Shown here piece after piece: positions 6,690 to 60,840 of a DNA stretch of 64,000 nt (positions are counted from its first letter, which is position 1; every line of letters begins with the position of its first letter). The notes beneath the pieces are model-generated. The model was given only the letters and a program-made list of their open reading frames with translations, was not told where the DNA came from and searched no databases. Location of the stretch: the NCBI GenBank assembly GCA_003024785.1, contig PUQB01000712.1, forward strand, positions 1 to 64,000, given 5' to 3'. Both the position numbers and the translations under genes were made by a program. The stretch is from Selaginella tamariscina. Lineage: Eukaryota; Streptophyta; Lycopodiopsida; Selaginellales; Selaginellaceae.

Positions 6690-7330
6690 ATATATAGAAA
6701 CACTAGGACACATTTCCACATTTGGTGTGCTTAATTATTTTAATAATAATTTATTAATTAATAAATTTTGAATTGAATAAGTTTATTTTTAAATTAAATT
6801 TTTAACTTAATTACTATTTTTAACTAGAGGAGCTTAAATCTATTTATGTCTAAACTTAATTATTTAATAACCCTTAATCTGATTATTATCCTTAATTAAG
6901 CTAGTTATTTTAAATTAGAGTTATTATTTTTAATTAGTAACTTTATCTCTTAAAGTATTACATAATTTTCCTTAATTCTCTTAAATTATTATGTATATAT
7001 TCTTTATTAAGTATGTGATAACTTACTTCTTTCCGTTTCTCTATACTGTAATCCTATAACTTATAGAGAAACTAACGTGTTTATATGATAATAAATTTAA
7101 TTTTTTCTTATAAATTATTGTATATATGTGACTTTATTAAATTATTATATGTATATAATATACACTTAGAATCTTTATATTTCTCGTTATATCGAGTTAT
7201 TATGTATCTTTTATTACTTTTAAGTTAAAACTTTTTTCCGACTTGTATAGTTTAAGATTAAGTATTTGTGAGGAGATACAAAATTCTTACTTACAATTTA
7301 TATTATTTAACATTAGAAGCTGAATTAAAA
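6690..7330. other. AT-rich intergenic DNA
   Basis: This stretch has very low GC with many TTAATTA-type words. I see no gene, repeat unit or RNA in it. Confidence 0.6.
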
Positions 7331-7334
7331 GATT

Positions 7335-7925
7335 GACATGTACTAGTCATGTTATATATAACGACGGAAGTTTGGTGCTTGCATCTACGTGCTTGCAAGA
7401 GCTCTCTAGACAACGATACCGCTGGGAGCTTTACCATAGTAACAAGCTCATAGAGATGTATGGCAAATGTGGAGATGTCAGGCATGCAAGAGAGACCTTC
7501 GACACAATCCCAAACAAAGATGTGTTCTCATGGGTCTTGCTGCTAAATGTATACTCCCGAAACGGGCATCTCCACGATGCAAAGCTTAATGCTGGAAAGG
7601 CTTGGAATGCCATTCTAACTGCATATGCCAAATGCGGGCATCTGCTACAAGCAAGAGATGTATTCAACTGTATCCCAGAGTATAACATAATCTCTTGGGT
7701 CTGCCCGATAGATGCGTGCATGAAACATGCAAGAAAACAGCATTATTCGTGTATGATTGACATGCTTGGGAAAGCTGGATATTTGGAATATGCGAGAGAA
7801 CTTAGTGTATGCATGCCCTTTTATGGCAGAGTCTGATGTCTCTCATGGGCGCTAATAGCAAACTAAACTGTAGCAACTATGCAGCTTTATATATACTCCT
7901 TGCAAATGCATGATAGCTAATCATA
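7335..7925 (+). pseudogene. Truncated PPR gene copy (internal deletion)
   Basis: An open frame at 7333-7836 gives PLS-type pentatricopeptide repeats (MYGKCGDVRHARETFDTIPNKDVFSW, shown here in part, followed by AWNAILTAYAKCGHLLQARDVF). It is nearly identical to the longer copy at 32750-34170 but lacks its middle: the sequence jumps from the 'DACMKH' repeat straight to 'KQHYSCMIDMLGKAGYLEYARE', removing at least six repeats. A shift after the CMPF word ends it. In one place this copy is better preserved than the other (SNKLIEMYGKCG reads through here). Family members act in organelle RNA processing or editing, but this remnant has no E or DYW domain and is very probably non-functional. Confidence 0.8.
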
Positions 7926-9587: not shown

Positions 9588-10337
9588 TAGTTGGCAATCT
9601 AGTTAATTAACTAACATGGTTTGCCCCTTATATGAAGTTAGCATCCACATAAGGACATATGAAGTAAGTAAACATCCAACATGGTTTCTTGCCCGGGACA
9701 TATGAAGTAAGTAAACATCCAACATGGTTTCTTGCCCTTATATGAAGTAAGTAAACATCCAACATGGTGGACATATGAAGTAAGTAAACATCCAACATGG
9801 TTTCTTGCCCCTTATATGAAGTAAGTAAACATCCAACATGGTTTTTGCCCCTTATATGAAGTTAGCATCCACATAAGGGACATATGAAGTAAGTAACATC
9901 CACTATATTGAATATGCCCCACTCTAGTTGGGCAATCTAGTTAATTAACTAACATGGTTTGCCCCTTATATGAAGTTAGCATCCACATAAGGACATATGA
10001 AGTAAGTAAACATCCACTATATTGAATATGCCCCACTCTAGTTGGGCAATCTAGTTAATTAACTAACATGGTTTGCCCCTTATATGAATTAGCATCCTAT
10101 ATGAAGTTAGCATCCACATAAGGGACATATGAAGTAAGTAAACATCCACTATATTGAATATGCCCCACTCTAGTTGGCAATCTAGTTAATTAACTCATGG
10201 TTTGCCCCTTATATGAAGTTAGCATCCACATAAGAGAACTAACATGGTTTGCCCCTTATATGAAATTAGCATCCACATAAGGGACATATGAAGTAAGTAA
10301 ACATCCACTATATTGAATATGCTTACTATGTCATATA
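9588..10337 (+). repeat. Satellite array, unit ~114 bp with many truncated units
   Basis: Units contain GGCAATCTAGTTAATTAACT, ATGGTTTGCCCCTTATATGA, GTTAGCATCCACATAAGG, ATATGAAGTAAGTAAACATC and CACTATATTGAATATGC. Two successive full units start at 9930 and 10044, giving a period of 114 bp; the others are shortened. The array resumes at 11299-11416 and at 25930 after the two insertions. Confidence 0.85.
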
Positions 10338-11298: not shown

Positions 11299-11416
11299 AT
11301 ATAAGCATCCACATAAGGGACATATGAAGTAAGTAAACATCCACTATATTGAATATGCTTACTATGTCATATAAGCATCCACATAAGGGACATATGAAGT
11401 AAGTAAACATCCACTA
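11299..11416 (+). repeat. Satellite array, segment between solo LTR and TIR element
   Basis: This short stretch contains the same satellite words and includes the empty target site of the neighbouring solo LTR. Its last four bases, ACTA (11413-11416), form the left target duplication of the 14.5-kb element. Confidence 0.85.
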
Positions 11417-11443
11417 ATGCACGTTGTAACTAAAGTGGGCATG
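11417..11443 (+). repeat. Left terminal inverted repeat of the 14.5-kb element
   Basis: This 27-bp end differs from the right end only at positions 6 (C/A) and 19 (G/A). It is preceded by the ACTA duplication. Confidence 0.88.
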
Positions 11444-11723
11444 ATACGTGAAAATGGGAATATAAAATAAATTACTAATTAATACTTAAGTTTTAATTAT
11501 TAATTAATCATTTAATTAATATGTAATTAAGCCTTAAATATTAATTAATTAATTAATTAATCCTTCAATAACCTTACTTAGTAAGGAATATTCCTAAAAT
11601 ATCTTAGAATATTCATATTATTCTAAAAATAGTTTACAATAATGAAGAAATACTATCAAACATAATTACAAATGAAATCATTTTCTTATCAACATGTTAA
11701 TTTTTTATAAATACTTTCTTCTA
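11444..11723. other. AT-rich subterminal region of the element
   Basis: There is no gene here. TTAATTA words dominate, and GGAATATTCC-like palindromes occur near 11586-11625. The right subterminal region has the same GAATATTC words at 25787-25845. Confidence 0.6.
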
Positions 11724-12865
11724 TCATACAAAGAAATCTTTCATTTTGTCTAAATCATCACTCTCCGGATTAATCAAATCATTTTGGTCAATATCTTGAT
11801 GTTGTTGCCACCACTTAACACTCTCACGAATGCAATTGGGAGTTGCCATCCTTGTTAATACATAAGATGTGATAAGAGAAGGTCTGCATAAAGGCTCATC
11901 TAAAAACTGACGTTCCTTAAGAATAATATTATAAAGCGCCCGGTTGCTATCCTTCATTTTATAAAATTCAATATCACGAGAAAGAAAAGCTTCAGGAAAT
12001 GTATGATACGGTGGATACTGCTCACAAAAATTTTCGAGATTCTTCTTTCTGAGGCACGTATCCAAGTAGTTCACTAGCTCATCCATGATATCGGTATCAG
12101 AATATGGATCGAAAGTGATTGGATGAATACAAGCAATGTTTTGGTTGAGCATAGCCTTCTGAGGAGAGTCGTCTACTACTAACATCTGTGCGTTCTTCAT
12201 TATCCTTAAGCGACTGATCTCCCCATGAGTCCCAATTATTCTTTCATTCTTGAAGAAGTATGGCTTGCTTTCCTTTCTTATATTGTGAAATTCGAGAGGT
12301 TTATAACACATTCGCTGGTCAAAAATCCAATCTTTACGAATCACCTCTTCTGCAACACTACAATGTTTCTTAAGTAAATTCAACAGCGGTGTTAAGTTAT
12401 GAATCTGCATGCATGACCAAATCCCCACAAGCGCACCCATCTCCTTAAGCTTTTGAAAGAGACGATCCAACCCTGGACGAAAAATAATATCATATCGAAA
12501 TTTACCATGACAAGGAATGAAATCTCCTTGTTTGATTTCTTTTTTCTATCCTGGGGCCTTTGTCGATGAAGCAGAACACCATTGACATCCAACAACACAA
12601 TATGGCCATGAGTAACATGAGATAGCGTTGCCTCTTGAATACTTTGCAAATCACTTGTTTGCTCCCTTTCACATTTATCCGTTGCCACTATCTCGTTGCC
12701 TATCCCTTCATCATTTAATTGTACATCATCCTTACAAGATTCAGATATTGCATGCGCTGAAGAAATTGATTTCGGAACTGAAGCCAATAAAAATGATGAT
12801 GAAGTGGCCCCCATAACGATGTTTTGAGCTGCATTATTATCCATTTCCTGCATGAACTCTGTCAT
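11724..12865 (-). CDS. FCP1/NLI-interacting-factor-like HAD phosphatase
   Basis: The minus-strand frame from the ATG at 12865 (an upstream exon ending at 12910 is possible) has about 85 variable residues. HAD motif I follows as LLDVNGVLLHR, then RPGLDRLFQKL, motif II in VGIWSCM, a WIFDQRMC block and motif IV as LVVDDSPQKA. This order is that of plant FCP1-homology (CTD-phosphatase-like) proteins, which hydrolyse phosphoserine/threonine via an Asp nucleophile. Motif I has Asn where the second Asp normally sits, as in a plant subfamily with DLNGLL, so activity is uncertain. A one-base deletion in the A-run (T-run 12540-12545 on plus) separates motif I from the rest; restoring frame gives continuous homology. 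It lies inside the TIR element, downstream of the ParB-like gene on the same strand, and is presumably captured cargo. Confidence 0.78.
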
Positions 12866-12899
12866 TCTGACATGTGGCACAAGAAATTGTCGCCAAACC

Positions 12900-13231
12900 C
12901 CTCTCTTACCTCATGCAATGCTGAAAATCCATGTTCTCAATTATTTCATTACATCTGCAAAATGATAATTAGCTGACCTTAAAATTATCAAGGTATATTA
13001 TTTACCTTGTTAATGTGTGACCCATGTTTGAACTAAAAGCTTCATTAATCCTTGAGAATTTATTTTCTGTACAAATATAAAAGAAATATACAAAAATGCC
13101 TTATGTTACACTCATTTACAACTATTCATCACTCTATCAATTCATTATCAATTCTTCTTCGCTATTACCTTCTGAGTGAGGCGAAGAAGGTCTAAGCCGC
13201 TTGTGAGATGGTTCAAGATCTTCTGCATCTT
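12900..13231. other. Spacer between the two minus-strand element genes
   Basis: This AT-rich stretch contains a possible short upstream exon of the phosphatase (minus donor GTAAGAG at about 12909). It otherwise serves as the 3' flank of the ParB-like gene. Nothing else is recognised. Confidence 0.4.
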
Positions 13232-16200
13232 CTATTGATGTTTCCATGGGTCCTGGAGTGTGTGCGAATGTTCTGTACTCCTCGAGATAACTTCCGGTCT
13301 AATATCTGATTGAAGTTCGTTCTCAGACTCCGAGATTGAACCAGATTCACCTTCAGAGCTATCGCACTTATCTGGAGGGAACTTTCTCAAATACGCCTTT
13401 ATGGATTCGTTGGGGTACTCAGTTGAGACCCAATCTATCCACTTGTTCAGGTCCTCAACCATGGTCTTATCCTTTTCAACGGCAAACACACATGTATGCC
13501 GAAGGTAACACTCCTTCAAGACGGACCCCCTAGTGCAGTAGTCAAAAACCCACGCATCACTGTGAGGACCCCTGATCAAGTTGACGATGCTCCGTGCCGC
13601 TTGACTTGTAATGTTTGGATAACGTACATTGCCGAATACGTCACTCATACCTATCGGTGTATCGGATGGAGGTTCAGGGCCGTTGGAGTGCAAACAGATG
13701 CCTGGCCAGTCATTTGGAAGCTTGAAATTGTTTGGCGCATTCCTAACAACCAAGTGAACAACGGTATCAATGCACTTGGGATTAGCATCGTTCATATAAA
13801 ATCCTGTCCAACGATGTCTATTCTTCTTGGCGAAGGCGAAGGCAAAAGTATCGGTGACATGAGCAAGAATCAAGAAATAAATACCTGAAAAAGTAGGTAT
13901 CAGTGAAGAGCGCAAGCATGAATTCAATAATAAATACCTTCTATGTATATGCTTGCACGGCTAAGTTTCTCCACCAGATCCTCTAGTGCCCTATCTGTCG
14001 AAAGATTTTTTGACACCCGCCGATCCATCACGAACAATTGAAACGGTTTCCTACAAGCAGTGATGTTACCCCATAAAGTCTCCGAATCTAACAACAAACA
14101 TCTGTAGGGCTTGTCGTGATTCGTAGCATCCTCCTTTATAAGGTTCAATTCGGTTCTCCGCTGCTGAAGGACTGCCATAAGAGAAGGCGTCATCCCAATG
14201 TTCTCCTTTTTGGCGTTGGCGTGCAATAGATTCTTGCCTAGATCTTCCGATTGGTTCACCCATTCGACAAGCATATCATCGTTCGTCACATGCAAATATT
14301 TGCTGACCTCTTCATATGTTGAAGTCGAGGTCCAACCCAGTTTGTGGCAGTGTATTCCCAACCACTCCTTGAAATGCCTGACCGTCTTCAACTCCATTGC
14401 CTTGAGATGAAAAGGAGAGGTTGGGCTGCTGTTATTAATTTGTAGTTTGCCATCGATCACCAAATCAGCCAAGACTTCCATCTCCTCCATCGTTGTTCCA
14501 TTTAAAGGCTTCAACCATGTGAGCTTGAAATCGTTGTCTACATCCTTTGTAGATTGAACAGACTTAGCCTTCGGCGTCTTACTGGGTTTCTTTGCAGACT
14601 TTTCTGAGGGCTCCCCTTCACTTGTCTGCTTCTTCTTCAGTGTTCCTTTTGAAAAGGATTCCATAATCCCCAACCATTTGGCAAAGATCCTATCTTCGGG
14701 GCAAGAAATCAACATCATCAGAAAGGATGTTTCCTTCCCGCCCACCTGGGCAAAATCAACTGCTGCAATTTCTTCAACTCTCTGAGGAAAAAGACAGATT
14801 AATATACCGGCGAGATAAATCCCGCCCAAACAATTTGCTTACCCGGTATTCCGCAGATTGTGTATTCCCTGCGGTAGCTCTTTGTGGTCGCTGAAGAGAT
14901 TCCCACACGGCTCGCGTGTGTTTAAACTTCTCCCATATTTTGCTGTTGTAGTGGTTGGTGTCGGCAGCGTCCCATTCCGCCGATAACTTATGGTACTGCT
15001 CGATTGTGAGATTCGGCTTAGCTAAAAACGCCGATCTTTTTGTCAGCTTCTCACGGGTATGCTCGGAAAGTTTTGTTGCCATCGTTCCTTTGTTGTGTTC
15101 TCGAGAAGTCGTTGGGCTGCCGTTATTGTGTGCTGGCCACTAATGATGTAGTACTTGATAGATTTTTATTCTCCGTCTGAATCTTCATGAGTTGTTCTGG
15201 TGTTGTGATCCAGACTTTGTCAGCGCCCTTCCTTCTTTCATAGTATGGACACAAAACAGCATTATGTGGAACGGTATAAGAATTGTCGTCCTTCATCTTC
15301 TCCATGAGCTCAGCTACACGTTCCTGGTTGAGTGGCCTGTAATTGAAGTTTGGGTTGACGCTGCAATATTTAACCCTACAAGGATAAAATCTTTTCATCC
15401 AACATCATTTCCTTGTGACTTATTGCAGCATGAGATGCCACAGGTGCAGCTGACAAAACGATTGATGATTTTCTTTTGCGATCCGAATCAACATGTGTGA
15501 TCCCCGACTGCAGCTGTTCTAGTGTTCTCGGCACACTCTTCCAGCTCCCAAAGCTCCTAAGCAAATTGAACGTGATCTGTAGAGAACCTGAGACCGAGCC
15601 ACCCTCTCAATCTCCTTATGATGTCGCTGTGTTCTTCTTCAATGTGAAGAGGGAAGATTGCTCCACTTGCTGATTTTCTGTATTGTGAAGCAATATCTCC
15701 TGACAATACACCTACTCGATGAGTCTGAAGATTTCGAAGTAGACATCCAGATGGATCCCCTCCATAGATGGGCTTTCGTTGAGTTGAAGAAGAACTCCAA
15801 GGTCAACATCATTAGTGAACACGTGAACGTCATTATCCACAAGTCGACAAAACCACCCGAAATTAATGTTGTAACTGACGACCTCTGGATCCGAGAACGT
15901 GACATTGGATGGAACAAGGCATATGTCGAGCATCGTCCAATCTGGGTTCGCAGCCTGCTTTCGGGTGCTTGACTAGCGAATCTACTTTCCATTGTTTTGC
16001 TTGTCCATGAGATGTGACAGAGGTTAATTTGACAGCACCATGGTTGCTCCAATGCGCTTCCCATTTATCTTAAAATATGGCCAAGTTGATTCCAGAATCC
16101 CCCTGCCCATCTCTTCTCCTGCTCTTGTCTTTAATGTCACCTCAATTCCACATCTGAATACAAAAATGATTAGTTCAAGTATCCGAGTATAACAGATTTT

Positions 16201-16276
16201 ATTTTAATTCTTACCCAGAATTTGACGACGACTCCATACTAATGACTCGATCTCCTTGTTTGATCAAATCGTCCTT
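13232..16276 (-). CDS. ParB-like domain fused to beta-class DNA-methyltransferase-like domain
   Basis: Reading from right to left: an exon at 16276-16215 (DDLIKQGDRVISM) splices in phase at 16153 into GIEVTLKTRAGEE. A long coding stretch with several one-base frame changes follows. At about 15395-15250 NPNFNYRPLNQERVAELMEKM resembles the ParB N-terminal helix region, and at 15127-15138 (YYIISGQHTITAAQRL) there is the equivalent of the ParB GEHR/GQHR motif. After a 61-bp intron (14842-14782) comes a Lys-rich linker, then a region like permuted amino-methyltransferases. An intron of ~60 bp (about 13942-13886) precedes the C-terminal block with WVFDYCTRGSVLKECYL and FAVEKD, in the place of the FxGxG motif I. 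The DPPY and FxGxG motifs are degenerate, so catalysis is doubtful. ParB plus methylase is a phage/plasmid-like pairing. The 5' end is unknown and may lie beyond palindrome array 1. Confidence 0.62.
14809..14826. repeat. Variant 18-bp palindrome inside a 61-bp intron of the ParB-like gene
   Basis: GGCGAGATAAATCCCGCC differs at two positions from the array palindrome. It lies between the donor at 14842 and the acceptor at 14782 on the minus strand, so it would be transcribed within the intron. Confidence 0.8.
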
Positions 16277-16378
16277 CTGCAAAATAATACACTATGAATA
16301 CAAATATATAAAAACGCACACACACTTGTATAAACCCGAATATACAAAAATAATACACAGAGAGAAGTAGACGTAATT

Positions 16379-16465
16379 AACTGTCCGAAGCTCACATTTG
16401 TGTTAGTGCAAAAGAAAGATAACATTTCGTTTTAGAACCACCACAAATGTGAGCTCTGGACAGTT
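16379..16465. repeat. Short inverted repeat (24-bp arms, ~40-bp loop)
   Basis: AACTGTCCGAAGCTCACATT(TGTG) at 16379-16402 is matched by the reverse complement at 16442-16465 with one mismatch. It lies between the ParB-like gene and palindrome array 1 and could form a stem-loop in DNA or in a minus-strand transcript. Confidence 0.75.
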
Positions 16466-16575
16466 TTACATAGATTCCTAGCTTTTACTCGAAATATTAT
16501 GATAAGATGATAAAAGTAAATAAAATGAGATATGCAACTTATATATACTAATACACATATATATTCACATGGAAG

Positions 16576-18132
16576 GTGCGGCGGGATTAATCTCGCCACC
16601 CCTTCAATGCCTCCTGAAAGAGTGGGCGGGATTAATCTCGCCACCTTTCTGGAGGCCTTGAACGGGAGTGCGGAATTAATCTTGCCACCCTTCTCGGTCT
16701 CAGAGAGAACTGGGCAGGATTTATTTCTCACACCCCTTCAGTGACTCCAGAAAGGAGGCGGGATTAATCTCGCCCACCATGTAAGGATGGTTAAATGAAT
16801 TTCCCCACCCTTCCCAATTCTCTCCATTGGTATGTTGTAAACCTTCTACGTCTCAGACAGAAACGTTTGGGATTGGTCCGACTCACCAATGGAGAAAAAA
16901 GGAAGGGTGGCGGGATTCATTCCTCCAACAGGCATTGAAGACTCGGCGGGATTAATCCCGCCGCCCAGGGCCTTCACTCGGTCCCTATGCGGCGGGATTA
17001 ATCCCGCCGGACGCCAATTCCCTGCGCGGAATCGGGCGGGATTAATCCCGCCGCCTAGGCACTTCAGGCAGGCCAATGGCGGCGGGATAAATCCCGCCCG
17101 ATTCCGCGCAGGGAATGCGTCGCGGCGGATTAATCCCGCCTCCCAGGCCCTTCACTCGGGCCTTAGTCGGCGGGATTAATCCCGCCGAACGCCAATGCCC
17201 TGTGCGAAATCTTGCGGGATTAATCCCGCCGCCTAGGCCCTTCAGGCAGGCCAATGGCGGCGGGATAAATCCCGCCCGATTCCGCGCAGGGCATGCGTAC
17301 GCGGCGGGATTAATCCCGCCCACCATGTAAGGGATGGTGAAATTAATCCCACCACCCTTCTCAGTTCCCTCCATTGGTATTTTGTAAACCTTCTCCGTCT
17401 CAGACAGAGTTAGTCGGGATTGATTCAACATACCAATGGAGGAAAAAAAGGGTGGCGGGATTAATCCCGCCACCGGGTAATGAAGGTTCGGAGAGACTAA
17501 TCCCGCCGCCCTCTCGTAAATCATGCGCTCACACATATATATTGGCTGCGGCATTTTGAACAGGGATGGGTGGGGGCGGGATTAATCCCGCCGCTTATAT
17601 CCTGCGGAAGTGCCTGAGCGGCGGGATTAATCCCGCCGCCCTCCGCGAAGGGCATGAGCGTGGGGCCGGATTAATCCCGCCGTTCATGTCCTGCGTGAAT
17701 TCCCTGGGCGGCGGGATTAATCCCGCCGCCTTACGCGCAGGACATGTTAGCCTTCCGTGCAGGATCTTTCATGCAGGCTCTTCGGTTAGCCTCATGAGCG
17801 GCGGGATTAATCCCGCCGCCCATCCCCTGTAAATGCCCTGCGCGGAATCCGGCGGGATTAATCCCGCCCATTAGGGCCTTCACACAGGCCATTGCCGGCG
17901 AGATAAATCCCGCCGCATTCCGCGCAGGGCATGGGTGAGCGGCGGGATTAATCCCGCCGCCGAGGCCCCTCACGCAGGCCATGGGCGGCGGATTAATCCC
18001 GCCGCTCTTCGGTTTGTCCTAGAGCGGCGGGATTAATCCCGCCGCCCATAGCCTGCTGAAGGCCTGCGGCGGGATTAATCCCGCCGCCGAGGCCATAAAC
18101 CTATAGCGGCGGGATTAATCCCGCCGCTCGAG
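16576..18132. repeat. Palindrome array 1 (GGCGGGATTAATCCCGCC)n
   Basis: I count about 15 perfect copies of the 18-bp palindrome GGCGGGATTAATCCCGCC and roughly ten variants (ATAAAT centre, TCTCGCC, one-base losses) between 16944 and 18126, plus degenerate copies from 16576. Many extend to 24 bp (GGC on each side). Spacers are 30-60 bp and share words such as CTGCGCGGAAT, CAGGCAGGCCAATGGC and GGCCTTCACTCGG, some in inverted orientation. A ~135-bp block containing CTCCATTGGTAT...ACCAATGGAG occurs twice (about 16778-16912 and 17322-17455). GC content is far above the surroundings. Open frames through it only encode GLIPP/GGINPA repeats and are an artefact of the palindrome. Confidence 0.95.
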
Positions 18133-18201
18133 GGCTTAGCGTGTGTGCGAGAGAAAAATTAATAAATAAAAAAATTATACAGATAAAAACACACACATAT
18201 A

Positions 18202-18271
<70 letters not shown>

Positions 18272-19029
18272 TGTATGTATGTATAGGAGTGTACGTGTGT
18301 GTGCAAGAGATAGATAAATAAATAAAATTATACAGTACTGGTACACATAATATATGTGTGTACATAGGTATATATATGTGTGTATATGTATATCGTGTGT
18401 ATGCGTGTGAGCGAAACAAATAAAATCATACAGATAAACAAACACACACACACACATATATATACACAGGAGTGTGCGTGTGTGTGCGAAAAAAAACTAA
18501 TAAATAAATAAAATTATACAGATAAACACACACATATATTGTGTGTATATAGATATATAACCATAGAGAAAGAGAGAGAGTCTGATGAATATATAGCATA
18601 TATATAAACTAGTGTTGTATATTTGTTAATATGCATTAATATGTATATATATGATATATATATATATTAATATATGTAAGAGCAGTGTGCGTGTGTGTGG
18701 AGAGATAGATCAATAAAAAAAATTATATAGATACTGGTACACATAATATGTATGTATATATGTATATAGGTATATATATATGTGTATATGTATATTGTGT
18801 GTATGCGTGTGTGAGCGAAACAAATAAAATCATACAGATAAACAAACACACACACAACATATATATACACAGGAGTGTGCGTGTGTGTGCGAGAGATAAA
18901 ACTAATAAATAAATAAAATTATACAGATAAACACACACATATATATGTGTGTATATAGATATATAACCCATATGAATATATAAGCATATATATAAACTAG
19001 TGTTGTATACTATTTGTTAATATGCATTG

Positions 19030-19067
<38 letters not shown>

Positions 19068-19205
19068 AAGCAGTGTGCGTGTGTGTGGGAGAGATAGATC
19101 AATAAAAAAAAATTTATAGATACTGGTACACATAAAATTATACGCACACTCCTATACATATATACATACATACATATACACACACACACACACACAGATC
19201 TCACA
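18133..19205. repeat. Higher-order microsatellite region (GT/CA, AT, ATAAATAA)
   Basis: Segments of the form GTGTGCGTGTGTGTGCGAGA - ATAAATAAATAAAATTATAC - AGATAAACACACACATATAT recur about six times (near 18133, 18290, 18470, 18685, 18872 and 19070), so the microsatellites were amplified as larger blocks. No coding sequence is present. Confidence 0.85.
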
Positions 19206-20200
19206 TGTGTGCACAGCCGCGGCCGCCGATTTCACAGCCGCGCCTCTTGAAACCCTAAGAATATACCTAAACCCTAAAGGAATTAAATATATATATTAAC
19301 CCTAATAGAATATTCCTTCTGAGAATATACTTAAACCCTAAAAAGAATAAAATATAGATTCGCCCTAAACGAATATTCTTTCATTATATTATTAGCGGTG
19401 CGTGTGCGTGGGTATATCACATACACCCCAAAAATATAAATCATGCAGGGATTTAACATGTGTGTGTCCATGAGAGTGTTAAAGTTTCATGTGTATCAAT
19501 ACATACATACACATTACATATATTAATACACATAATATATACATACACACGTGTATACACACAGACATACATACATATTACATGGGTTTAGGGTTTAGGG
19601 TTTTGGATTTAGGATGGATCGTGTATGTATGAGAGAAGAGAGAGTGTTGAAAAATTATTTTTGTACACATTGCATATATTAGTACACATATATACTTACA
19701 CATATTATACACAGATATACATACATAGTATATGAGAGAAGAGAGACAGTACATATTATGGATCATGCATGGTGTGTATTATACACACAGACATACATAC
19801 ATATTAGTACATAATATTAGAGAGACCGAGTACATATTATAGATCATGCATGGTGGTATGTTTGAGAGAAGAGAACAGTACATATTAACATGGATCATGC
19901 ATGGTGTGTATGTTTGAGAGAAGAGAAACAGTACATATTAACATGGATCATGCATGGTGTGTATGTATGAGAGAAGACAGAAAGTACACATATATACATA
20001 CACACGTGTATACACAACAGACATACATACATATTACATGAGTAAATTCATTGTGTTACATATTAGGGTTTAGGGTTTAGGGTTTAGGATGGATCATGCA
20101 TGGTGTGAAGAGAGAGTGTTGAAAAATTATTTTTGTACACACATGTATACACAGGGTTTAGGGTTTAGGGTTTAGGGTTTGCTTCCCAACAAGCTTAATA
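19206..20200. repeat. Duplicated blocks with interstitial TTTAGGG telomere motifs
   Basis: GTTTAGGGTTTAGGG tracts occur at about 19585-19610, 20066-20092 and 20154-20180. Blocks with GAGAGAAGAGA, CAGTACATATTAACATGGAT and CATGCATGGTGTGTATG recur three to five times between 19610 and 20110. I see no gene. Confidence 0.8.
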
Positions 20201-21250
20201 TAAATATTACACATGTAAATTCAATGTGTTACATACACACAGATTGAGTACATATATCATACATGTGTTGAACATGATGTTTTTAATAAAGAAGCAACAT
20301 ATTTTTTCAGTTTGGTTTAAGATTGTGCATGTGTGTGCATATGTGTTTTTGTAAGTTCTTGTAATGCGTGTGTAAATTTAATTATACATAATAATATATG
20401 ATTTTATCTAATATAGCCATATATAGTTTTAATAATATATATTAATTTAATATTGATAAAAAGGTTTAACATTGAAATATCTTGAAATTAATAAGAAATT
20501 AATTGAGAAAATCCATTAATATATACAAATGTAAATTAAGTACTCAAATAATTAACTAAATTAATTATCATAATCATGTTTAATATTGGAATATTCTTGG
20601 AATAATAAGAAAATAATAAAGAATATCCATTAATATAAAGAAGATTAATTACTCAAGTAATTAAGGAAATGATATTAATATACACACTATGAACATATTT
20701 TAAATTATACATAATAATACATCATTTTATCTAATATATAGTCATATATAGTTTTAATAATATATATTAATTTAATATTGATAATAAGGTTTAACACATG
20801 AATATTCTTGAAATAATAACAAATTAATTGAGAAAATCCCATTAATATATACAAATGTAGAATAATTACTGCAATAATTAAGAACAAGACTAATTTATTA
20901 TGATAATCAGGTTTAATATTAGAATATTCTTCAAATATTAATAAAATAATAAGAATATCCCATTGATACTAGGAAATGAAAACTAATACTCGAGTAATTA
21001 AGAAAATAATAATAATAAACAGACTATGAATATATTTAAATGATACATTAATAATATATCAAATTTATTGTATAAGTATATATTATATATATATATATAT
21101 AAATAAATATACTTGAATACTAAGAATGTAGAATATAGTCTAAAATTTCGTAATATTAAACAGTTTTGAATCACTTGAATAACATTAAATGCAATTTTAA
21201 ATACTCATTGGAACTGGAGAGTATATATGTCAGAGTGTCGGATATTTGTG
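20201..21250. repeat. AT-rich DNA with a ~325-bp tandem duplication
   Basis: The segment starting near 20380 (ATTATACATAATAATATATG, then GTTTTAATAATATATATTAA) recurs from about 20703 with few changes, including GGTTTAACA...AATATTCTTG blocks. The rest is AT-rich and featureless. Confidence 0.65.
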
Positions 21251-21339
21251 TCAACTCATCTTAATATTTTATTTTCTGTTCTTTTTAAAAAAAATTTGAA
21301 TTTCTGACATATGTATTGTCGGTCTGACATGTAAATTTG

Positions 21340-21523
21340 AAAATGCATTTAATTTCCCACTCAAATTCAGATCTGGTTCTTTCTCCGGCAAGGGTTTCTT
21401 CATTTCTGTATTTTTCACTCTTTAGATCTTCTTTTTTTCTTCATAGTGATCATCTCAGGAGCGAGATTAAATTGGGTGTTATTCTTTATAGGAAAAGCAC
21501 GGCGCCTTTAGTGCTATTTACAA
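21340..21523 (+). other. Probable 5' UTR exon of the DUF7869 gene
   Basis: A stretch of more balanced composition (TCTCCGGCAAGGGTTTCTTC, AGCACGGCGCC) ends at a perfect donor CAA|GTAAGTA at 21523/21524. A matching acceptor TTATTTATGTGCAG at 22306 lies just before the first in-frame ATG of the downstream gene. The transcription start is not identifiable. Confidence 0.5.
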
Positions 21524-21682
21524 GTAAGTATTATAAACAAATTTAAAAATACTTATAAAGATTCACTCTCTTACATTCTCTCTTAAAAATTACAATTTTA
21601 GGGGTTTTAGGATATAATATATTCCGTTAGGGATTTATTCCCGTTTAAATATCCTTTTAACTTAATATTCTATGTTAACCGG

Positions 21683-22165
21683 GGCGGCGAGATTAATCCG
21701 GCCATTTCTTTTTTCGCCTCTTCGAAAAGGTGGCGGGATTAATCCCGCCACCATCTCTCGGGCAATGCTTCTCCGCCACTGAAAAAGAGTGGCGGGATTA
21801 ATCCCGCCAATAACCTTCTCAACTGATGAAGAGTTACCAGAATTTATTAAAAAAGAGTTGTCGGCGGGATTAATCCCGCCAACCATTTTAGGAGGCAGGG
21901 AAGGGGTGGCGGGATTAATCTCGCCAACCACATCCCTGTTTTAAGGATTTGAGGACAGAATTTATCCCGAGATCTTTTTTGAAATCATAGTTTTCGAGAG
22001 AGTTATGTGCGGGTTTAATCCCGCCACCCATTCCCCGTCGTAAGAATTGTGGGCGGGATTAATCCTGCCGACTCTCTCCGAAGGGGTTGAGTCGGCGGCG
22101 GGATTAATCCCGCCGACCGTTCCTCGTCGGAGGGATCGTGGGCGGGATTAATCCCGCCCATCAGT
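21683..22165. repeat. Palindrome array 2 (GGCGGGATTAATCCCGCC)
   Basis: There are five perfect copies (near 21730, 21790, 21862, 22096 and 22140) and about four variants, spaced 40-100 bp. The motif is the same as in array 1, 3.5 kb away. This array falls between the donor at 21524 and the acceptor at 22306, so it is probably inside the 5' UTR intron of the DUF7869 gene. Confidence 0.93.
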
Positions 22166-22312
22166 TGTATTAATCAAACATGAGATATTATCTTTAAACA
22201 TAATTATGTATTATTGCATATGCATATTATTAAGTAACCGTAATTCAGATTTCTTAGAAATATTGCATAAACAGATATCATAAATAATACAATTATTTAT
22301 GTGCAGGACAAT

Positions 22313-25300
22313 ATGTTTAATACTGGAGATAAAGTATGTCTTCTTCGGAACAACGAGATAGTTGGCACTGGAAATGTGGAAGTTCGAGATAATAATGCAT
22401 CATGTCACAATATTGCCCAAGGATTCTTGTGTGTACGTATGGTTGAACATCATTTACAAGCATGTTGAGGTTCTGGGAATGGAATTTGAGGAGGGTTCTC
22501 CTGTATTGTGGAATTTGGATGAAATCAGGCTGACACAGAATATGCAAAGTCACAAACAAATAGTAGCACGAGTTTACCAGATGATGGCTTGCCTGTTGTG
22601 ATGGATGAGGTGATTCTCTTTTTTCGTGAGATTTGAAGTCGGAAGAGCATCATCACAGCTATAAATCCAATGGAACAGCGTGTCGAAGAGAAACTAGGGT
22701 CCGACTTCGTGGGTGTAGTTGTGACAGAGGTTTCACCTAATGGCACATTGTATCCTGGATCTCTCATGAGGTGGCGAACATCTGAATAAGACGGCAAGAT
22801 GGTTCAACATATTCTGGGTTGGATTTCAATAATAACAACCCGGAAGAACAACTCATATTTGAAGAGGTTCCTTGCATTGGTCCTATTGTAAGAAAAAGGC
22901 GATTCATGGGTTGTAGATCTTCCCCTGCAAGTTTCAGCAAGAGGGTAAAGATGGATCCTACATCTTCCGAAAGTGTTACGAGCATTTCCACGATTGACTG
23001 TTGCAAGAAGAAGTGTTGTCAGATGGCAGACCGGAATGAAATTACCCAATGTAGACATGTCTTTCGTATGCTCACCCAAAAGCAAAGGCATGAGTTTGTA
23101 TATGCTGCACTAACTGGGTGTATTGATGGAATGGCCTCGGACACAGGTTATCAGAGTACATCCATGGTATTTAATAAGGTGGCCATCTGCTTCAAAGCTT
23201 GGTACAGTATATACGGGATCCCAAAGACCACGTTCTACCGTCGGAGGGATGAGTGGCTAGATGGAGCGCGAACCTCAGTTCATGGGAACACTCGCTTGGT
23301 CAAAACCCGCTCTCACATCATGGCAGCCATAGAGATACTCAAGGCTTTTGTGGAAGCAAATGCAGACAGGATGCCTCACAAATGCCGAACCACAAATGCA
23401 GGGGTCAGGGAAAATCTCAAGGTTTTGCCTTCAATCTACACTCAATTGAAGCTGTGTGAACATGTGAACAAGTGCCTCAGTTTGATGGGGCTCCAAGCAA
23501 TCTGCACTGGTACCTTCAACAACATATGGAATACTCATTTTAAGGATGTGGAGATTGCAAAACACTCTAGCTTTTCCAAGTGTGACACTTGTACATCATT
23601 GAAGGCTGCAGAGGCTTGTGCAAAAACCTTGGTGGAGATCACTACCATTCAAAAGAAGATGGAGGCCCACATGATTGCACAACAAACTTGCCGGTCTCAG
23701 TACTATGCACACCGCATGCTTTCTGTGTCACGCCCATCAGAGTACCTGTGCTTGATCCATGACAAGATGGATCATTCAAAGACCAGCATTCCAAAGCTCT
23801 TTGCAACACCAAAGTGCCTTGGAAATGTCATGAAACTTCCGATTTCATTGACAGGTGTGCTAACACATGGACACGGTTGTGAGTCATATGGACACTTTTC
23901 ACTTTCCACATTGGTCTAGCGACTCCAATTTCACTATTGGGTCGTTAGCCATGTGTTTCAGAAACCTTGAAGCCCACTCACAGACAAGTCCTATCAGTGA
24001 TCTCAAAGTGAAGAAACAACACCTTCAACCTTTACATAATGCTCTCATGAACACATCTGCACTTGAGGCTACTTGGGAATATGAGAGGCATTGTCAACAG
24101 CCTGCACAGAAAACAGATGGCCCTGTTGAGAGTTCTGGTTCAGTGGAGGGATCTAGCTCAAATAGTGTACATGTGTCCTCAACATCAAATAAGCTTCCTC
24201 GTCATTTGCTTTTACAGATGGATAATTGTGCAGGCGAGAACAAAAATAGGTAAATCATTTTACTTAAGGGTTTCTCAAGCTCATACTTACTTTTATTTTC
24301 TAGATATGTGCTAGCATATGCTTGTTGCCAAAGGTGTGTTTGAAACAATCACGCTCAGTTTCCTTATGGTTGGTCACACTCATGAAGATATTGATGCGTT
24401 CTTCAGCAAGGTCTCCAACTCTACAAAAAGGACAAGTGCACTTACCTTACCGCATATGATGAATCTTTTTGAAAATTGCATCTCCAAAAAAAGTTGTGCT
24501 TTGCTTGTGACTGAGGTGCCAGACTTCAAAAAATTTCTCAAGGAGTATATAAAAGAAGGGAGTGATTCTTTAGTTGGTCACCTTGTGCCGCTACAATTCT
24601 TTTTCTCCATACGAGATGGTATACCTATTATGCAGTACAAGTTACGGCCATCAGAGCAGGAGTGGTTACCGAAAGAGGGCTTAATGCTCTTCAAAAGTGG
24701 AGAGGATGGAAAGCCACTTCTCCCAGAAGGACAACCAGACCCTATTCCATTGAGTGCCCAGCTCAAGGAACAAGAGGTTATTATTGATGGCATCAAAAAA
24801 TATGTGGCATGGGTTCAAAAATCGATGCCAAAGAATTCTGATAAGGCAACTGGTTACTCAGAACTATATAAGCATGTGGTCGACTATTGGGAGACTGTTG
24901 TTCGAGAGTTGGAAGGGCCTACTGTCACAAGTACAGAATTGCAACACCCTTTCTGGCCTAAAACAAGGTGGCGAGAGGAGATTGAAATGACATCACTGAG
25001 CATAGACGACATAGAAGCCAGTAGTGATGTGGAAGTGCAAACCCCACACTTTGTTGGACAAAGGAACCAAAAACCTAAAGCATACTTTGATTGTTGCCAG
25101 GATCTTCAAAAACTAATGATGGTTCTCATTACTCCAGATGCGTCATATAATCAGCCTATTTGGATGGGTCAAATTATCGACACACCTGAAGTAATCACAA
25201 AAAATAGTATTGTTAAGGTTGCATGGTTCAAACCACAAAAAAGGCGACACGAGAAGGAGAGCGAAAGATATAATGGATGCCTAGAGAAAACATGGTCTCC

Positions 25301-25424
25301 CAATCAAAAAGACCCAGCATGTTTTATAAATGTTAAATCCATTCGATATGGGTGGATGTCAAGAAGCGTTGATAAAGTCACGATTAACAAAACTGCAAGG
25401 GAATGTATGTTTTCTGAAGCTTAA
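22313..25424 (+). CDS. DUF7869-family protein, putative DDE-like transposase
   Basis: The ATG at 22313 follows a good acceptor at 22306. The N-terminal part (MFNTGDKVCLLRNNEIVGTG, then GMEFEEGSPVLWNLDEIRLT) is like the small domain at the N- or C-terminus of several plant transposon proteins. From 22819 a long frame carries basic residues, a CC/H cluster and CDTCTSLKAA. The signature blocks of the DUF7869 group follow: HDKMDHSKTSIP (about 23760), QMDNCAGENKNR (about 24220) and FLMVGHTHEDIDAFFS (about 24362-24410). The spaced acidic residues resemble an RNase H/DDE fold; this is inference. An intron at about 24249-24303 splits the second and third blocks. Frame changes at 22440-22460, 22620-22810, the T-run 23896-23899 and about 24320 break the gene. 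The C-terminal ~150 residues end at 25424. It is the likely mobilising gene of the TIR element. Confidence 0.75.
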
Positions 25425-25902
25425 AGCAATTACAAAATTATAAAATATCATATATTTAATATTCATAATTATTATAAACTCTTTAATAATAGTACCAAAT
25501 TGTATACTTAACTATATAAATTTAAAAAATGATATGGAAGATTGACTATATTATTATAGGATTTTATATATATATTATTACTACTACAAATTTTTAATTA
25601 ATAATGTTATATTTAAATATTAATATTTTAATAACAACATCAATATTTATATAATGTACCTCTTATGCTCTTCCTTAATTGTTATATTAGGCAATATATT
25701 ATATAATTTAATACCTTCTACTTTTATAATGTTATTAATTTTTGTTCAATGAATGCTATAATTTATTAAAGGGTAGAATACAAAATAGAATATTCTAAAG
25801 AATATTCTTTTCAAACATATATTCTAAAGAATATTCCTTTAATATTAGAAAATGCTAATTAAATAGCTAAAATTGCTAATTATTAGGAAATAGGACTATA
25901 GC
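25425..25902. other. AT-rich right subterminal region of the element
   Basis: No gene is visible. GAATATTC-type palindromes cluster at 25787-25845, mirroring the left subterminal region. Confidence 0.6.
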
Positions 25903-25929
25903 CATGCCCATTTTAGTTACAACTTGCAT
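25903..25929 (-). repeat. Right terminal inverted repeat of the 14.5-kb element
   Basis: The reverse complement matches the left end at 25 of 27 positions. It is followed by the ACTA duplication at 25930-25933 and then satellite sequence. Confidence 0.88.
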
Positions 25930-26160
25930 ACTATATTGAATATGCTTACTATGGTTTCTTAGAGTTGCCCCTTATAGGCATATGAAGTAAGTAAGCATCC
26001 ACTATATTGAATCTCTAGTAAGCAGATATCTTGGGCATATGAAGTAAGTAGCATCCACTATATAATCTCTAGTAAGCAGATATCTTGGGCATATGAAGTA
26101 AGCAAGCATCCACTATATTGAATCTCTAGTAAGCAGATATCTTCTGTATATAGTAGTTTA
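25930..26160 (+). repeat. Satellite array, right part
   Basis: The array resumes with ACTATATTGAATATGC and three shortened units (ATATGAAGTAAGTAAGCATC, CTAGTAAGCAGATATCTTGG). These are a variant of the left-hand units. Confidence 0.85.
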
Positions 26161-27075
26161 AGCAATGCCTTAAAACAAAACACTATATGCCATTATAAAA
26201 GAAATAGTTTTATTTATTCTTCAATCAAATTTGTTCATCAGCTATGTATTCATACCAAATGAGAAAACATTTTTTAAACCAATTTGTTCTATTCTTTAAA
26301 TATTTAAATTAAATCTGATTCAATACATATAAAATGTTATGTCTTTAATAAAAACAATGATAAAAAACAATCTCATAAAATTATATGAAGTAAGCAAGCA
26401 TCCACTATATTGAATCTCTAGTAAGTAGATATCTTCTGTATATAGTAGTTTAAGCAATGCCTTAAAACAAAACACTATATGCCATTTTTAGCTATTTTAT
26501 GTAATTATTTATTAATTTACTTATACATCTTTATTTCATTATAAAAGAAATAGTTTATTTATTCTTCAATTAAATTTGTTCATCAGCTATGTATTCATAC
26601 CAAATGAGAAAACATTTTTTAAACCAATTTGTTCTATTCTTTAAATATTTAAATTAAATCTAATTCAATACATATAAATAATGTTATGTCTTTAATAAAA
26701 ACAATGATAAAAAACAATCTCATAAAATTATATGAAGTAAGCAAGCATCCACTATATTGAATCTCTAGTAAGCAGATATCTTCTGTATATAGTAGTTTAA
26801 GCAATGCCTTCAAACAAAACACTATATGCCAAATTTATTCACTAAATTTTACAAAATAGGAAGTTTGAACCACCAAGATTATATATATTACATATATATA
26901 AAGTAAAATTCATATCTTTTAATAAGAAAAACTTTTGCTTAATAAAGAATAAAAAATAAAATTATATAATTTGTTCTATTTTTTAAATATTTAAATTAAA
27001 TCTGATTCAATACATATAAATAATGTTATGTCTTTAATAAAAACAATTTCAAAAATTATATAGCAAACTACAGAC
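26161..27075 (+). repeat. Triplicated ~350-bp repeat
   Basis: The block AAGCAAGCATCCACTATATT...AGTAAGTAGATATCTTCTGT...TTTAAGCAATGCCTT recurs near 26100, 26390 and 26740. AT-rich spacers containing CAGCTATGTATTCATACC and CAATACATATAAA(TA)ATGTT lie between. Spacer words are shared with 35940-36430 and 47520-48000. Confidence 0.75.
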
Positions 27076-32749: not shown

Positions 32750-34170
32750 ACATATACTAGTCATCATGCTGTATATATTGACGGAAGCTTCGTGCTTAGC
32801 GTCTGCGTGCTTGCAAGAGCTCTCTAGACAACCATACCGCTGGGAGCTTTACCATAGTAAAGCTCATAGAGATGTATGGCAAATGTGGAGATGTCAAGCA
32901 TGCAAGAGAGACCTTCGACACAATCCCAAACAAAGATGTGTTCTCATGGGTCTTGCTCCTAAATGTATACTCCCGAAACGGGTATCTCAACGATGCAAAG
33001 CTTACATTTGATCAAATGCCGGAAAAGAATCTAGTGGCTTGGAATGCCATTCTAACTGCATATGCCAAATGCGGGCATCTGCTACAAGCAAGAGAGGTAT
33101 TCAACTGTATCCCAGAGTATAACATAATCTCTTGGGTCTGCCTGATAGATGCGTACATGAAACATGGTTGTGTTGAGGAAGCCAAGTGGATGTTCCAAAT
33201 TCAGCCCCAAAAAGACTTGGTTTCATGGAACGCAATGCTCTGTGGATATGTGGTGAATGGGCCGAGTGCAGGACGCAAAACAAGTGTTTGATGCAATGCC
33301 TCTACGGAACATAATCTCATGGACAAACATGTTAGTCGCATTTATGAAGAAGGATGATGTTGAAAATGCTAAAGACGTCTACGATTCAATGCCTGCTAGA
33401 GATCTGTTATCGTGGACTTCAATGCTTACTGCATATGTCCGAACTGAGCATCTGCAAGAGGCCGTGTCGATCTATGATGAGGTTGGAAACCCAGACATGG
33501 TTTCTTCTTCTTGCATGATAAATGCATATGGCCAGAGAGGGCATGTCGATCAAGCCAAGGAGATATTTGATAACATCCCGGAACTTGATCTTATTTGCTG
33601 GACGTCCATGCTTTCTGCATATGCAATGAACGGCTACTTGCAGGATGCTGAGGCCACGTTTAGGAGTATGCCATTGCGCGGTACAGTTTCATGGACTCTA
33701 TTGCTAGCTGCTTATGGGAACGCAGGAAACCTCAAAATGGCAAGGGAAATCCTGAACAAAATGCCTGAACGGGACTTAGTTTCTGCGACTGCATTGTTAG
33801 CTGCATACGCCCAGAATGGGGATATGTACAATGCAGAAGTAATCTTTAGTGAGCTTAAGATGGTTCATTCCCTGATGACGTATGCTTCATATCTATGCTC
33901 CTGGCGTGTGAACGCCGAGGGAAAGTATACAAAGGAAGATGCTATTTTGTTTCTATGGTTGGAGATTATAACATTAAACCAAGAAAACAGCATTATTCGT
34001 GTATGATTGACATGCTTGGGAAAGCTGGATATTTGGAATATGCGAGAGAACTTAGTGTATGCATGCCCTTTATGGCAGAGTCTGTAGATTGGATGTCTCT
34101 CATGGGCGCTAATAGCAAACTAAACTGTAGCAAATATGCAGCTTTATATATACTCCTTGCAAATGCATGA
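32750..34170 (+). pseudogene. PLS-type PPR gene with frameshifts and no E/DYW domain
   Basis: About twelve pentatricopeptide repeats can be read, for example MYGKCGDVKHARETFDTIPN, KNLVAWNAILTAYAKCGHLL, RNIISWTNMLVAFMKKDDVE and RDLLSWTSMLTAYVRTEHLQ. They end with the YFVSMVGDYNIKP...QHYSCMIDMLGKAGYL block typical of the last repeats before an E domain. The reading frame breaks at 32858-32861 (two bases shorter than the 7.3-kb copy), at the GGG 33259-33261 and at 33856-33862. Translation stops after 'YILLANA' with no E, E+ or DYW domain. Intact relatives are organelle RNA-editing or RNA-processing factors. Flanking inverted repeats and the truncated sister copy suggest spread by duplication of a repeat-bounded unit. 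Some breaks could be assembly indels. Confidence 0.85.
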
Positions 34171-46544: not shown

Positions 46545-48640
46545 GGTTCCTAACAACTCTTTGAACTAATTAACTGCATATTGATACTTTATATCTAACG
46601 AAAAATAGTGTGGACTAATTAATTTAAAACGATACAATACGCTTCACTAAATTATTAATAAACTCTTTTGGATATTCTACCTTACAACGAGGAAACTCCC
46701 GCACATACATTGTTCATTTTCATTTGTAAACTATTTTTGAGAGATTCAATATCACAGATATGTCATGTTTGTAGAATTAAGCATACATTTTTTAATTTTC
46801 AATTGATATTCAGCTTTACAAAGTCAATTCAATATACATTGCATATTGTAGAAATGATCATCTCAATAACCTGGTCCATAAATCAATCCATCAATAGTGA
46901 AGTTTGTAATAATATTTACCAAACAATATATATAAATATATTTCTTAATAATAAATTTGAAAAATTCTTAAATTTTATTTATTTTCACAACTGTGAAAAA
47001 AATTCACTAGGCTTTGTTATTTTAAAACATTATTTAAATTATAAATGCTATTTATATTTCATTAAATTCATTGAATATATGGGAAATTTATTAATTTAAT
47101 AATTTAAAAAAACATTTCCTATTTAAATGTTTATTCATTTAGTATTTAAATAACTTTTAAAAATAAATTAATATTCATTTAGATTTATTTATTTCATGAG
47201 ATGTTTATTTAATTATTAATTGATTTAAAACATTTTTACTCATTTATCAATTAACTAACAATATCAATATCGAATAAGTTTTGCCAACAAAAATACCACC
47301 ACGTCTGGTGTATACGACGATGACACGAAGTTAAAGGATAATATTCTTAATCAAATGACTTCATGGCCCAAAGGATAAGGCGCTGGTCTACGACACCAGA
47401 GATTCTGGGTTCGATCCCCAGTGAAGTTGCCACGGCATATGAAGTTGAGCAACCTTGTTAATTAACTGACACCCATATGAAGTAAGTAAGCATCCACTGG
47501 AAATTTTCGATTGTATAAATTTAGCATTATAAAAGAAATAAATTCTATTTATTCTCCAATCAAATTTGTTCATCAGCTATGTATTCATACCAAATGAGAA
47601 AAATTTTTTAAACCAAAAAATCCATATAAAAAATTAAATTATATTAAAGTTGACTCTTCATATAATTTTAATTTTATATTTTTGATTATCTTTAAAAAAG
47701 GTTATTTATATATCGATGAACTCTTGTTACAAAGGATTTGAAATTTATTTATTGTGTTGTGTAGTCAAATTTATTCACTAGAGTTTACAAAATAGGAAGT
47801 TTGACCACCAAGGTTTATATATATATATAAAGTAGATTTCATATCACCTAATAAGAAAAACCTTTGCTTAATAAAGAAAAAAATAAAATTATATAATTCG
47901 TTCTATTTTTTAAACATTTTAAACTAAATCTGATTCAATATATAAATAATGTTATGTCTTTAATAAAAACAATGATAAAAAATAATCTCACAAAATTATA
48001 TAGCGAACTAATAACAATATAAATATATTATGCCCCCCCCCAAAAAAAATACATATGTCACCTTGAAAGGGAATATCCTTCACTTGGATATAATAATATA
48101 TCTCAATATGTATATGCATATTATTTATAGATACTTAAGTACATATATATGATACACATAATTAATATTTGAGAGTTTGGAATATAAAAATATGCATATT
48201 GTATTAGCCCAAAATCTAACTTATATATAAAAGTGACTCGTTCAAATTAAAACCAATCCAATGCATATCAAAATCCCACTACGCTAAAATAATATATAAT
48301 ATTGTAGCTATACACCTGGACTTTACAGTACATGGCATTGTAGGCATACATATAGACCTTAGATTATCCTCTCCTCTCAGAAAGTTATTAGGTTCTCTAG
48401 TAGAGAGCCGGGATCTAAAGAACCATTAGGAAGAGGCACATGTGGATTTATAGGTGGCATAACTTGTTCTTGACCCTAGTGCACGAAATGCTTTAAGCGT
48501 TAACATGCACAATCTTTGGAGGATCGGGTTGAATATTGTGTCGAACCTTATAAACTTGCGGCCTTACCTGATACAACACTTGATATGGTTTCTTTTATTA
48601 AAGAAGGAGACTCTTGGCCAAACCACAACACTAAAACATG
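46545..48640 (+). repeat. Dispersed repeat R1, copy with the best-preserved tRNA-Arg
   Basis: This matches 35015-36780 and then the gypsy 3' edge (36800-37040), until an inverted LTR interrupts it near 48640. Satellite-like words follow the tRNA at 47433-47495. Confidence 0.78.
47357..47429 (+). tRNA. tRNA-Arg(ACG)
   Basis: This 73-nt sequence has acceptor stem GACTTCA/TGAAGTT (one G-U pair), D arm GGCCCAAAGGATAAGGC, anticodon stem-loop CTGGTCTACGACACCAG with anticodon ACG, and a perfect T arm CTGGGTTCGATCCCCAG, with no intron. Apart from a few substitutions it follows the plant cytosolic tRNA-Arg(ACG) consensus. A and B boxes are present, so it could be transcribed by Pol III. Its place inside a dispersed repeat makes function uncertain. 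Confidence 0.72.
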
Positions 48641-59814: not shown

Positions 59815-60840
59815 CTATGCCTTCCTCCAACAAGTGTAGCACACATTGACAGATAATTTCCTATGCATGGCTTGCACCTAGCTCAGAGGCAATCAATACG
59901 TTGACTGCATGGCTGATGCTTGCATCACATGTCAATCGGACCAGAAAAGTGCACCAACATGCGTAGCACACATGGCTTGCACCTAGCTCAAAGGTGATCA
60001 ATACGTTGACCGTATGGCTAATGCTTGCATCACATGTCAATTGGACTAGAATAAGTGCACCAGCAGGCGCATCACACATGGCTTGCACCACATGTCATTC
60101 GGATGGTTGATGCTTGAATCACATGTCAATCGGAGCAAAATAAGGTGATGCAAGCATCAACCATCTGAACTAAAATAAGTGCGCCAATAGGCACAGCACA
60201 CATGGCTTGCATCACATGTCAATCGAATCAGAATAAGTGCGCCAACAGGCACAGCACACATGTCATTCGGATGGCTGATGCTTGCATCACATGTCAATCA
60301 GACTAGAATAAGTGCTGTGCCTGTTGGCTTGCATCACATGTCAATCGGACCAGATGGTTGATGCTTGCATCACATGTCAATCAGACCAGAATAAGTGCTA
60401 TGCCTATTGGCTTGCATCACATGTCAATCAGACCAAATAAGTGTTGCGCCTGTTGGCTTGCATCACATGTCAATCGGACCAGAATAAGTGCGCCTATTGG
60501 CTTGCATCACATGTCAATCAGACCAGAATAAGTGCTATGCCTGTTGGCTTGCATCACATGTCAATCGGACCAGAATAAGTGCTGTGCCTTTTGGCTTGCA
60601 TCACATGTCAATCGAACAGAATAAGTGCTGTGCCTTTGGCTTGCATCACATGTCAATTGGACCAGAATAAGTGCTGTGCCTTTTGGCTTGCATCACATGT
60701 CAATTGGACCAAATAAGTGCGCCAACAAGTGTAGCACACATGGCTCGCACCAATCAGTATGGCTTGCATCACATGTCAATCAGACCAGAATAAGTGTGGC
60801 AACAAGTGCAACACATATGGCTTGCACCAAATAGTATGCC
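59815..60840. repeat. Minisatellite, ~47-bp unit with inverted sub-segments
   Basis: The unit GGCTTGCATCACATGTCAAT / CGGACCAGAATAAGTGCTAT / GCCTGTT recurs more than 12 times. In several units the segment GTGCTGTGCCTGTTGGC is replaced by its reverse complement GCCAACAGGCACAGCAC. Frames through it encode repetitive artefacts. Confidence 0.88.

Follow-up and report, generated by a model that had tools for sequence, protein, structure and literature searches.

A 14.5-kb DNA transposon of probable Sola1 type with accessory genes and palindrome arrays in the lycophyte Selaginella tamariscina

Positions 1 to 64,000 of contig PUQB01000712.1 in the Selaginella tamariscina assembly GCA_003024785.1 (64,000 nucleotides; hereafter the window) contain a 14.5-kb DNA transposon. 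It carries, from left to right, an FCP1-like gene, a large helper gene that we call P2, two arrays of an 18-bp palindrome and a DUF7869 transposase gene (Table 1). The element proper occupies 11417–25929 (14,513 bp), or 11413–25933 once both copies of the flanking ACTA are counted. Its left terminal inverted repeat (TIR), ATGCACGTTGTAACTAAAGTGGGCATG, and the reverse complement of its right TIR, ATGCAAGTTGTAACTAAAATGGGCATG, are identical at 25 of 27 positions, with two mismatches. Over all position pairs in 64 kb, about 0.001 inverted matches of 26 bp with no more than two mismatches would be expected if the bases were equally frequent; at the 66% A+T of the window, the true chance exceeds this. 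ACTA directly flanks both TIRs. Taking out the element and one ACTA leaves a junction whose surrounding 40 bp are identical to the adjacent satellite unit. The original prediction, made from the letters of the window, had described a complete TIR element with 27-bp ends, an ACTA duplication and an empty site in a satellite, and all of this is borne out by the ends, the junction and the further copies described below. The target satellite (CATCCACTATATTGAATATG and relatives) forms blocks on both sides of the element (window 9653–10320, 11300–11416 and 25930–26790); to the right of the element it has a different unit ending (CATCCACTATATTGAATCTC).

Many near-identical copies of the element are present in the assembly that we searched (300.7 Mb in 1,391 contigs). 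The second transposase exon, used as a query, found at least 111 copies, all 99–100% identical, and one P2 exon was 100% identical in at least 130 copies. The right TIR was present with at most four edits at 28 of 30 right-end loci, and was followed by different sequence in each (50 bases compared). Thirty left-end stretches were taken in batches of 4, 18 and 8, two further loci lying beyond contig ends; the 22 copies of the first two batches had been pre-chosen for a right TIR and a long enough contig. The left TIR was found in 19 of these stretches, giving, with the window copy, 20 copies with both ends. The other 11, which may be longer, truncated or rearranged copies, were excluded from the duplication count; among them is C503, which continues into an older, diverged relative broken by what looks by eye like a Gypsy-type retrotransposon.

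An exact 4-bp duplication flanks 10 of the 20 two-ended copies (ATAT in three; CCTT, ACGT, ATAC, ACTA, TTAA, TAGA and GTTT), or 14 of the 20 if a 1-nt offset at one junction is allowed. Random re-pairing of the flanks in 5,000 trials gave a mean of 1.11 exact matches (maximum 5), or 1.46 with the offset (maximum 6). Flank matches of exactly 5 bp did not occur; one copy had a match of 6 bp, in a TA run, and one a match of only 3 bp. The lengths of 14 other copies fall between 14.2 and 15.0 kb. Gene order (FCP1-like gene, P2, both arrays, transposase) is the same in all three copies compared, C518, C113 and C852, with stretches of 55 and 230 bases left out of two of the comparisons. Other copies with the same ends, similar gene content and 4-bp duplications had been anticipated, and were found.

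Over as much as 3.1 kb of the right end, 29 other copies differ from the window copy by 0.06–1.07% substitutions; the median, about 0.37%, is biased low because these were the best-scoring copies. Small indels, which break the reading frames of the window copy, fall at different positions in each copy and look, at least in part, like assembly noise. In some copies the transposase frame is uninterrupted on either side of the intron, over the part read. The assembly contains 27,128 exact copies of the palindrome and 0 of a reversed control. Dividing by 16–26 exact sites per element, a range taken from the window element and three middle stretches of other copies, we estimate about 1,040–1,700 element equivalents, or 5–8% of the assembly. 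This estimate rests on palindrome sites rather than whole elements, and it would go up with the smaller numbers of exact sites often seen in the listed clusters. The first 100 palindrome sites of the listing all lie on contig C1 and form 17 clusters, 12 of which make up six pairs 3.07–3.81 kb apart, compared with a gap of 3.56 kb between the arrays of the window copy. Nested insertions were also seen: the copies L005, L018, L027 and L035/L056 lie within or next to diverged relatives of greater age, and beyond the right TIR of at least three of them (L005, L018 and L027) lies an older relative of the element itself.

The transposase gene matches PF25273 (DUF7869) on two exons (E 1.5e-8 and 2.9e-23), and 54 homologues were found. 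In the predicted model of one homologue, P0003, a core that appears DDE/RNase H-like lies between Tudor-like and BAH-like ends, which would fit the DUF7869/DDE-like gene that had been proposed here. From this model we infer that the transposase has an N-terminal Tudor-like, a DDE/RNase H-like and a C-terminal BAH-like region; a Foldseek search returned no match at E ≤ 0.001. A search of genome contigs for a bacterial source confirmed one of 109 stretches, the DUF7869 transposase relative L057, on the 4.3-kb contig CADCWO010000071.1 of a cyanobacterial metagenome-assembled genome. This sole contig is more likely a eukaryotic contaminant, and a bacterial source was rejected.

The two helper genes lie on the minus strand, with the FCP1-like gene downstream of P2. 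The predicted FCP1-like phosphatase gene is supported by PF03031, above the cut-off of 21.8 bits (E 1e-9, 38.7 bits on the window exon; E 7.5e-13, 48.9 bits on a joined query); a PDB sequence search with its protein gave no match at E 0.001. The usual catalytic motif of FCP1/NIF-like phosphatases is DxDxT/V. In the window and C113 copies the acidic motif reads DVNGV, with the second Asp replaced, so the protein is FCP1-like in sequence but may lack phosphatase activity. P2 is one spliced gene, probably of four exons (joins and GT-AG introns were placed by eye). Read by eye, it contains a ParB-like stretch (GQH region) ending in SGQHTITAAQRLL. Permuted N6/N4 DNA methyltransferases have a characteristic motif order, and the C-terminus of P2 resembles it, although a DPPY motif is not evident. 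The original prediction had called this a ParB/methyltransferase-like gene, but no ParB or methyltransferase model, and nothing else relevant, matched P2 in Pfam, PHROGs or NCBIfam at E up to 10. Weak profile matches to phrog_21535, HOOK and PH_BUD3_C (E 0.04–0.08) look like chance, and the PDB sequence matches of the C-terminal part were only to designed dTor proteins (E 0.0012 and 0.094). No P2 homologue was found in a set of 5.8 billion proteins with the search extended to E up to 10, and the fold predicted from the single sequence of one P2 exon was of too low a quality to interpret.

The element holds 37 sites with at most three mismatches to the 18-bp palindrome GGCGGGATTAATCCCGCC, 20 of them exact, and the two predicted arrays, of 27 and 9 sites, both lie inside it. 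No such site occurs elsewhere in the window, and none in 100 Markov shuffles of the element. The number of sites varies by copy (34, 38 and 40 in three middle stretches). Palindrome cores changed less than spacers against an old copy (13/178 versus 57/422, p 0.036) and in array 2 of three young copies (5/485 versus 39/1014, p 0.002; this pooled count includes shared changes more than once). In array 1 of the three young copies there was little or no difference (1/180 versus 3/440, 0/215 versus 2/522 and 3/180 versus 8/472).

Older copies preserve a record of selection on the helper genes. Against one older decayed copy, the ratio of nonsynonymous to synonymous change (dN/dS) in P2 is 0.47 (388 codons), 0.26 (106 codons) and 0.26 (82 further codons), rough values because this single reference has indel noise of its own; the synonymous excess is significant for the exons of 388 and 106 codons (Fisher p 0.0003 and 0.004, respectively). 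For the FCP1-like gene, another old copy gives 0.41 (141 codons; synonymous excess p 0.004). For the transposase, a third gives 0.43 (63 codons), which is not significant (p 0.09). A control alignment of non-coding DNA from the right side matched the young copy itself and was set aside. The ratios are upper estimates if, once inserted, the old copies were free of constraint as they decayed. Judged from these substitution patterns, the helper genes are under purifying selection. Compared with the young copy, the older copies L027, L035 and L056 are also rich in C-to-T and G-to-A changes. In all three stretches, with the direction of change assumed, the rates are higher in CG and CHG than in CHH, as would be expected from past 5-methylcytosine.

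Table 1. Features of the transposon, in window coordinates
Feature	Position	Strand	Remarks
Left copy of target site duplication (ACTA)	11413..11416		4 bp
Left 27-bp TIR	11417..11443	+	25/27 match to right end; present in 19/30 other left-end stretches
FCP1/NIF-like phosphatase gene, limits approximate	11724..12910	-	PF03031
Helper gene P2, limits approximate	13100..16240	-	about 950–990 aa; open reading frames; GT-AG introns
Single palindrome-like site	14809..14826		inside P2 intron
Palindrome array 1 (GGCGGGATTAATCCCGCC)	16580..18125		27 sites with ≤3 mismatches; spacing about 45 bp; upstream of P2
Central region, no gene assigned	18126..21685		microsatellite-rich; TTTAGGG telomere-like runs
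Palindrome array 2	21686..22158		9 sites; upstream of transposase gene
Transposase gene (DUF7869), start approximate	22313..25424	+	PF25273; frame interrupted in window copy
GT-AG intron of transposase gene	24250..24303	+	removal of the matching stretch in copy L022 gives an open frame across the join
Right 27-bp TIR	25903..25929	-	first 26 bp, ≤4 edits, in 28/30 right-end loci
Right copy of target site duplication (ACTA)	25930..25933		4 bp

The runs of the plant telomere repeat TTTAGGG in the central region are short (window 20063–20090 and 20153–20181). Outside the element, a search of the window for traces of it gave a single 27-bp match, all other hits being translated low-complexity matches. 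The element is flanked by two PPR gene fragments (window 7324–7836 and 32800–34006) that resemble each other, share a strand and are separated by about 25 kb. Farther along are a tRNA gene (47357–47429), a tandem array with a 47-bp unit (60280–60838) and, near it, a ubiquitin-conjugating enzyme fragment (62620–63057).

We believe that the element is probably a giant cut-and-paste DNA transposon of the Sola1 type that recently spread to, very roughly, a thousand copies or more. This placement follows published descriptions of Sola. Sola transposons are described as having 4-bp duplications and TIRs of 11–1124 bp, with sizes mostly of 2–9 kb and some above 15 kb (PMC10741241). The present element has a 4-bp duplication, a 27-bp TIR (25/27), and a large gene, P2, on the minus strand opposite a plus-strand transposase. 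Its transposase, with its chromatin-reader-like domains, would bind the TIRs, excise the element and insert it through 4-bp staggered cuts. We propose, with less certainty, that P2 is an element-borne DNA-binding accessory protein that recognizes the palindrome arrays beside both gene sets, and that it may keep the element expressed against host silencing, as VANC does for VANDAL elements. It is a matter of speculation that the FCP1-like protein acts with P2 on transcription. A fuller version of this idea is a self-recognition system, in which a ParB-like, possibly catalytically dead methyltransferase binds its own 18-bp palindromes, marks copies as self and shields them from silencing. We offer this version tentatively, as somewhat unlikely. 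If true, self-recognition would have let a 14.5-kb element reach very roughly a thousand copies or more and place about 27,000 identical binding sites in a plant nucleus.

Several other explanations bear on these proposals. The palindromes could be promoter sites for a host factor and not for P2. This is possible, though less likely than not: the half-site GGCGGGA is one that we take to be E2F-like, the arrays lie upstream of each gene set, and the slower change of cores than of spacers, in array 2 and against the old copy, fits such a role as well. On the other hand, both halves of the 18-bp site are kept in all 37 sites, which were chosen by their similarity to the palindrome, and most of the 100 listed genome sites fall in element-like clusters, host promoters lying outside that comparison. 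The helper genes themselves might be passengers, captured host DNA without a role, as in Pack-type elements. Gene capture by plant transposons is common, FCP1 is a general eukaryotic family and P2 has no detectable function, but we find this reading quite improbable, since the dN/dS values of the P2 exons (0.47 and 0.26) and of the FCP1-like gene (0.41) are near that of the transposase (0.43), both genes are kept in the three copies compared, and identical P2 exons are so numerous.

The element could also belong to a separate, undescribed superfamily with a DUF7869 transposase. A placement by published descriptions leaves room for this, as do the Foldseek result and the fact that DUF7869 was not found in the open-licence literature. 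We nevertheless regard it as unlikely, because the duplication, TIR length and size lie within the range reported for Sola in the passages available, and because an opposite-strand ParB-type gene is also found in a published Sola1 element, if P2 is ParB-like. Large size, several genes and the proposed bacterial-type domains would suit an integrated virus or a Polinton-like element, yet no capsid, polymerase or packaging domain was seen among nine open reading frames of the element scanned against Pfam, and of 59 plus 5 pattern-matching stretches in viral contigs none was confirmed as a related locus; we consider this origin extremely improbable.

Bacterial ParB-parS pairs a DNA-binding protein with a palindromic site of similar length on one molecule. 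The element likewise combines a candidate DNA-binding protein with a palindrome of comparable length, but it is not a replicon, no ParA partner was seen and the ParB reading of P2 was made by eye. VANDALs belong to a different transposon superfamily, MULE. Like the VANDAL/VANC system of Arabidopsis, the element has its own helper, and short motifs at the introns and upstream regions of its own genes whose number varies between copies. Arrays of the VANC21 motif occupy introns of VANDAL genes and the regions upstream of them, and VANC21 induces methylation loss (PMC5735166). In contrast to our palindrome, the VANC21 motif as described there has nine bases and is non-palindromic, and binding is proven for VANC21 but only proposed for P2.

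Among plants, Sola has been reported in the moss Physcomitrella (PMC10741241, PMC9033089) and as 0.06% of an early assembly of the fern Ceratopteris (PMC6890710). The present element resembles plant Sola in its 4-bp duplications and TIR length and in a size within the reported range. It differs from plant Sola, as described in these passages, in its accessory genes, its palindrome arrays and a family that makes up about 5–8% of the assembly. Among the matches listed for Sola in moss or fern or for giant elements in the open-licence literature, there was no element like it. Nothing related to phosphatase genes in transposons was found there either, which is weak evidence given that only open-licence literature was covered.

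The closest system is Sola1-1_Ec32 of Ectocarpus, a 21.5-kb element with a ParB-like and DNA methyltransferase gene (1104 aa) opposite the transposase strand (PMC12477816). Both are giant, and in both a large accessory gene runs antiparallel to the transposase gene. Ours is 14.5 kb long and from a plant, and its FCP1-like gene and 18-bp palindrome arrays go unmentioned for Sola1-1_Ec32 in the passages available; P2, with no profile match or evident catalytic motif, is likened to the Ectocarpus accessory protein by description only. The original prediction knew of no described superfamily that pairs such a gene set with a 4-bp duplication. In part this does not hold, as Sola has 4-bp duplications and Sola1-1_Ec32 a ParB/methyltransferase gene. 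What is apparently new is the FCP1-like gene, the palindrome arrays beside both gene sets (for which no literature search was made) and the high copy number. The spread of very large DNA transposons is thought to be limited by recombination among their copies (PMC12477816). An element of about 14.5 kb that seemingly passed a thousand copies recently offers a natural experiment on the contribution of accessory genes. The Ectocarpus authors suggested that accessory proteins of the ParB-methyltransferase kind bind the transposon that encodes them and modify it, with no site named in these passages (PMC12477816), and the palindrome arrays of the Selaginella element are a candidate site for such binding.
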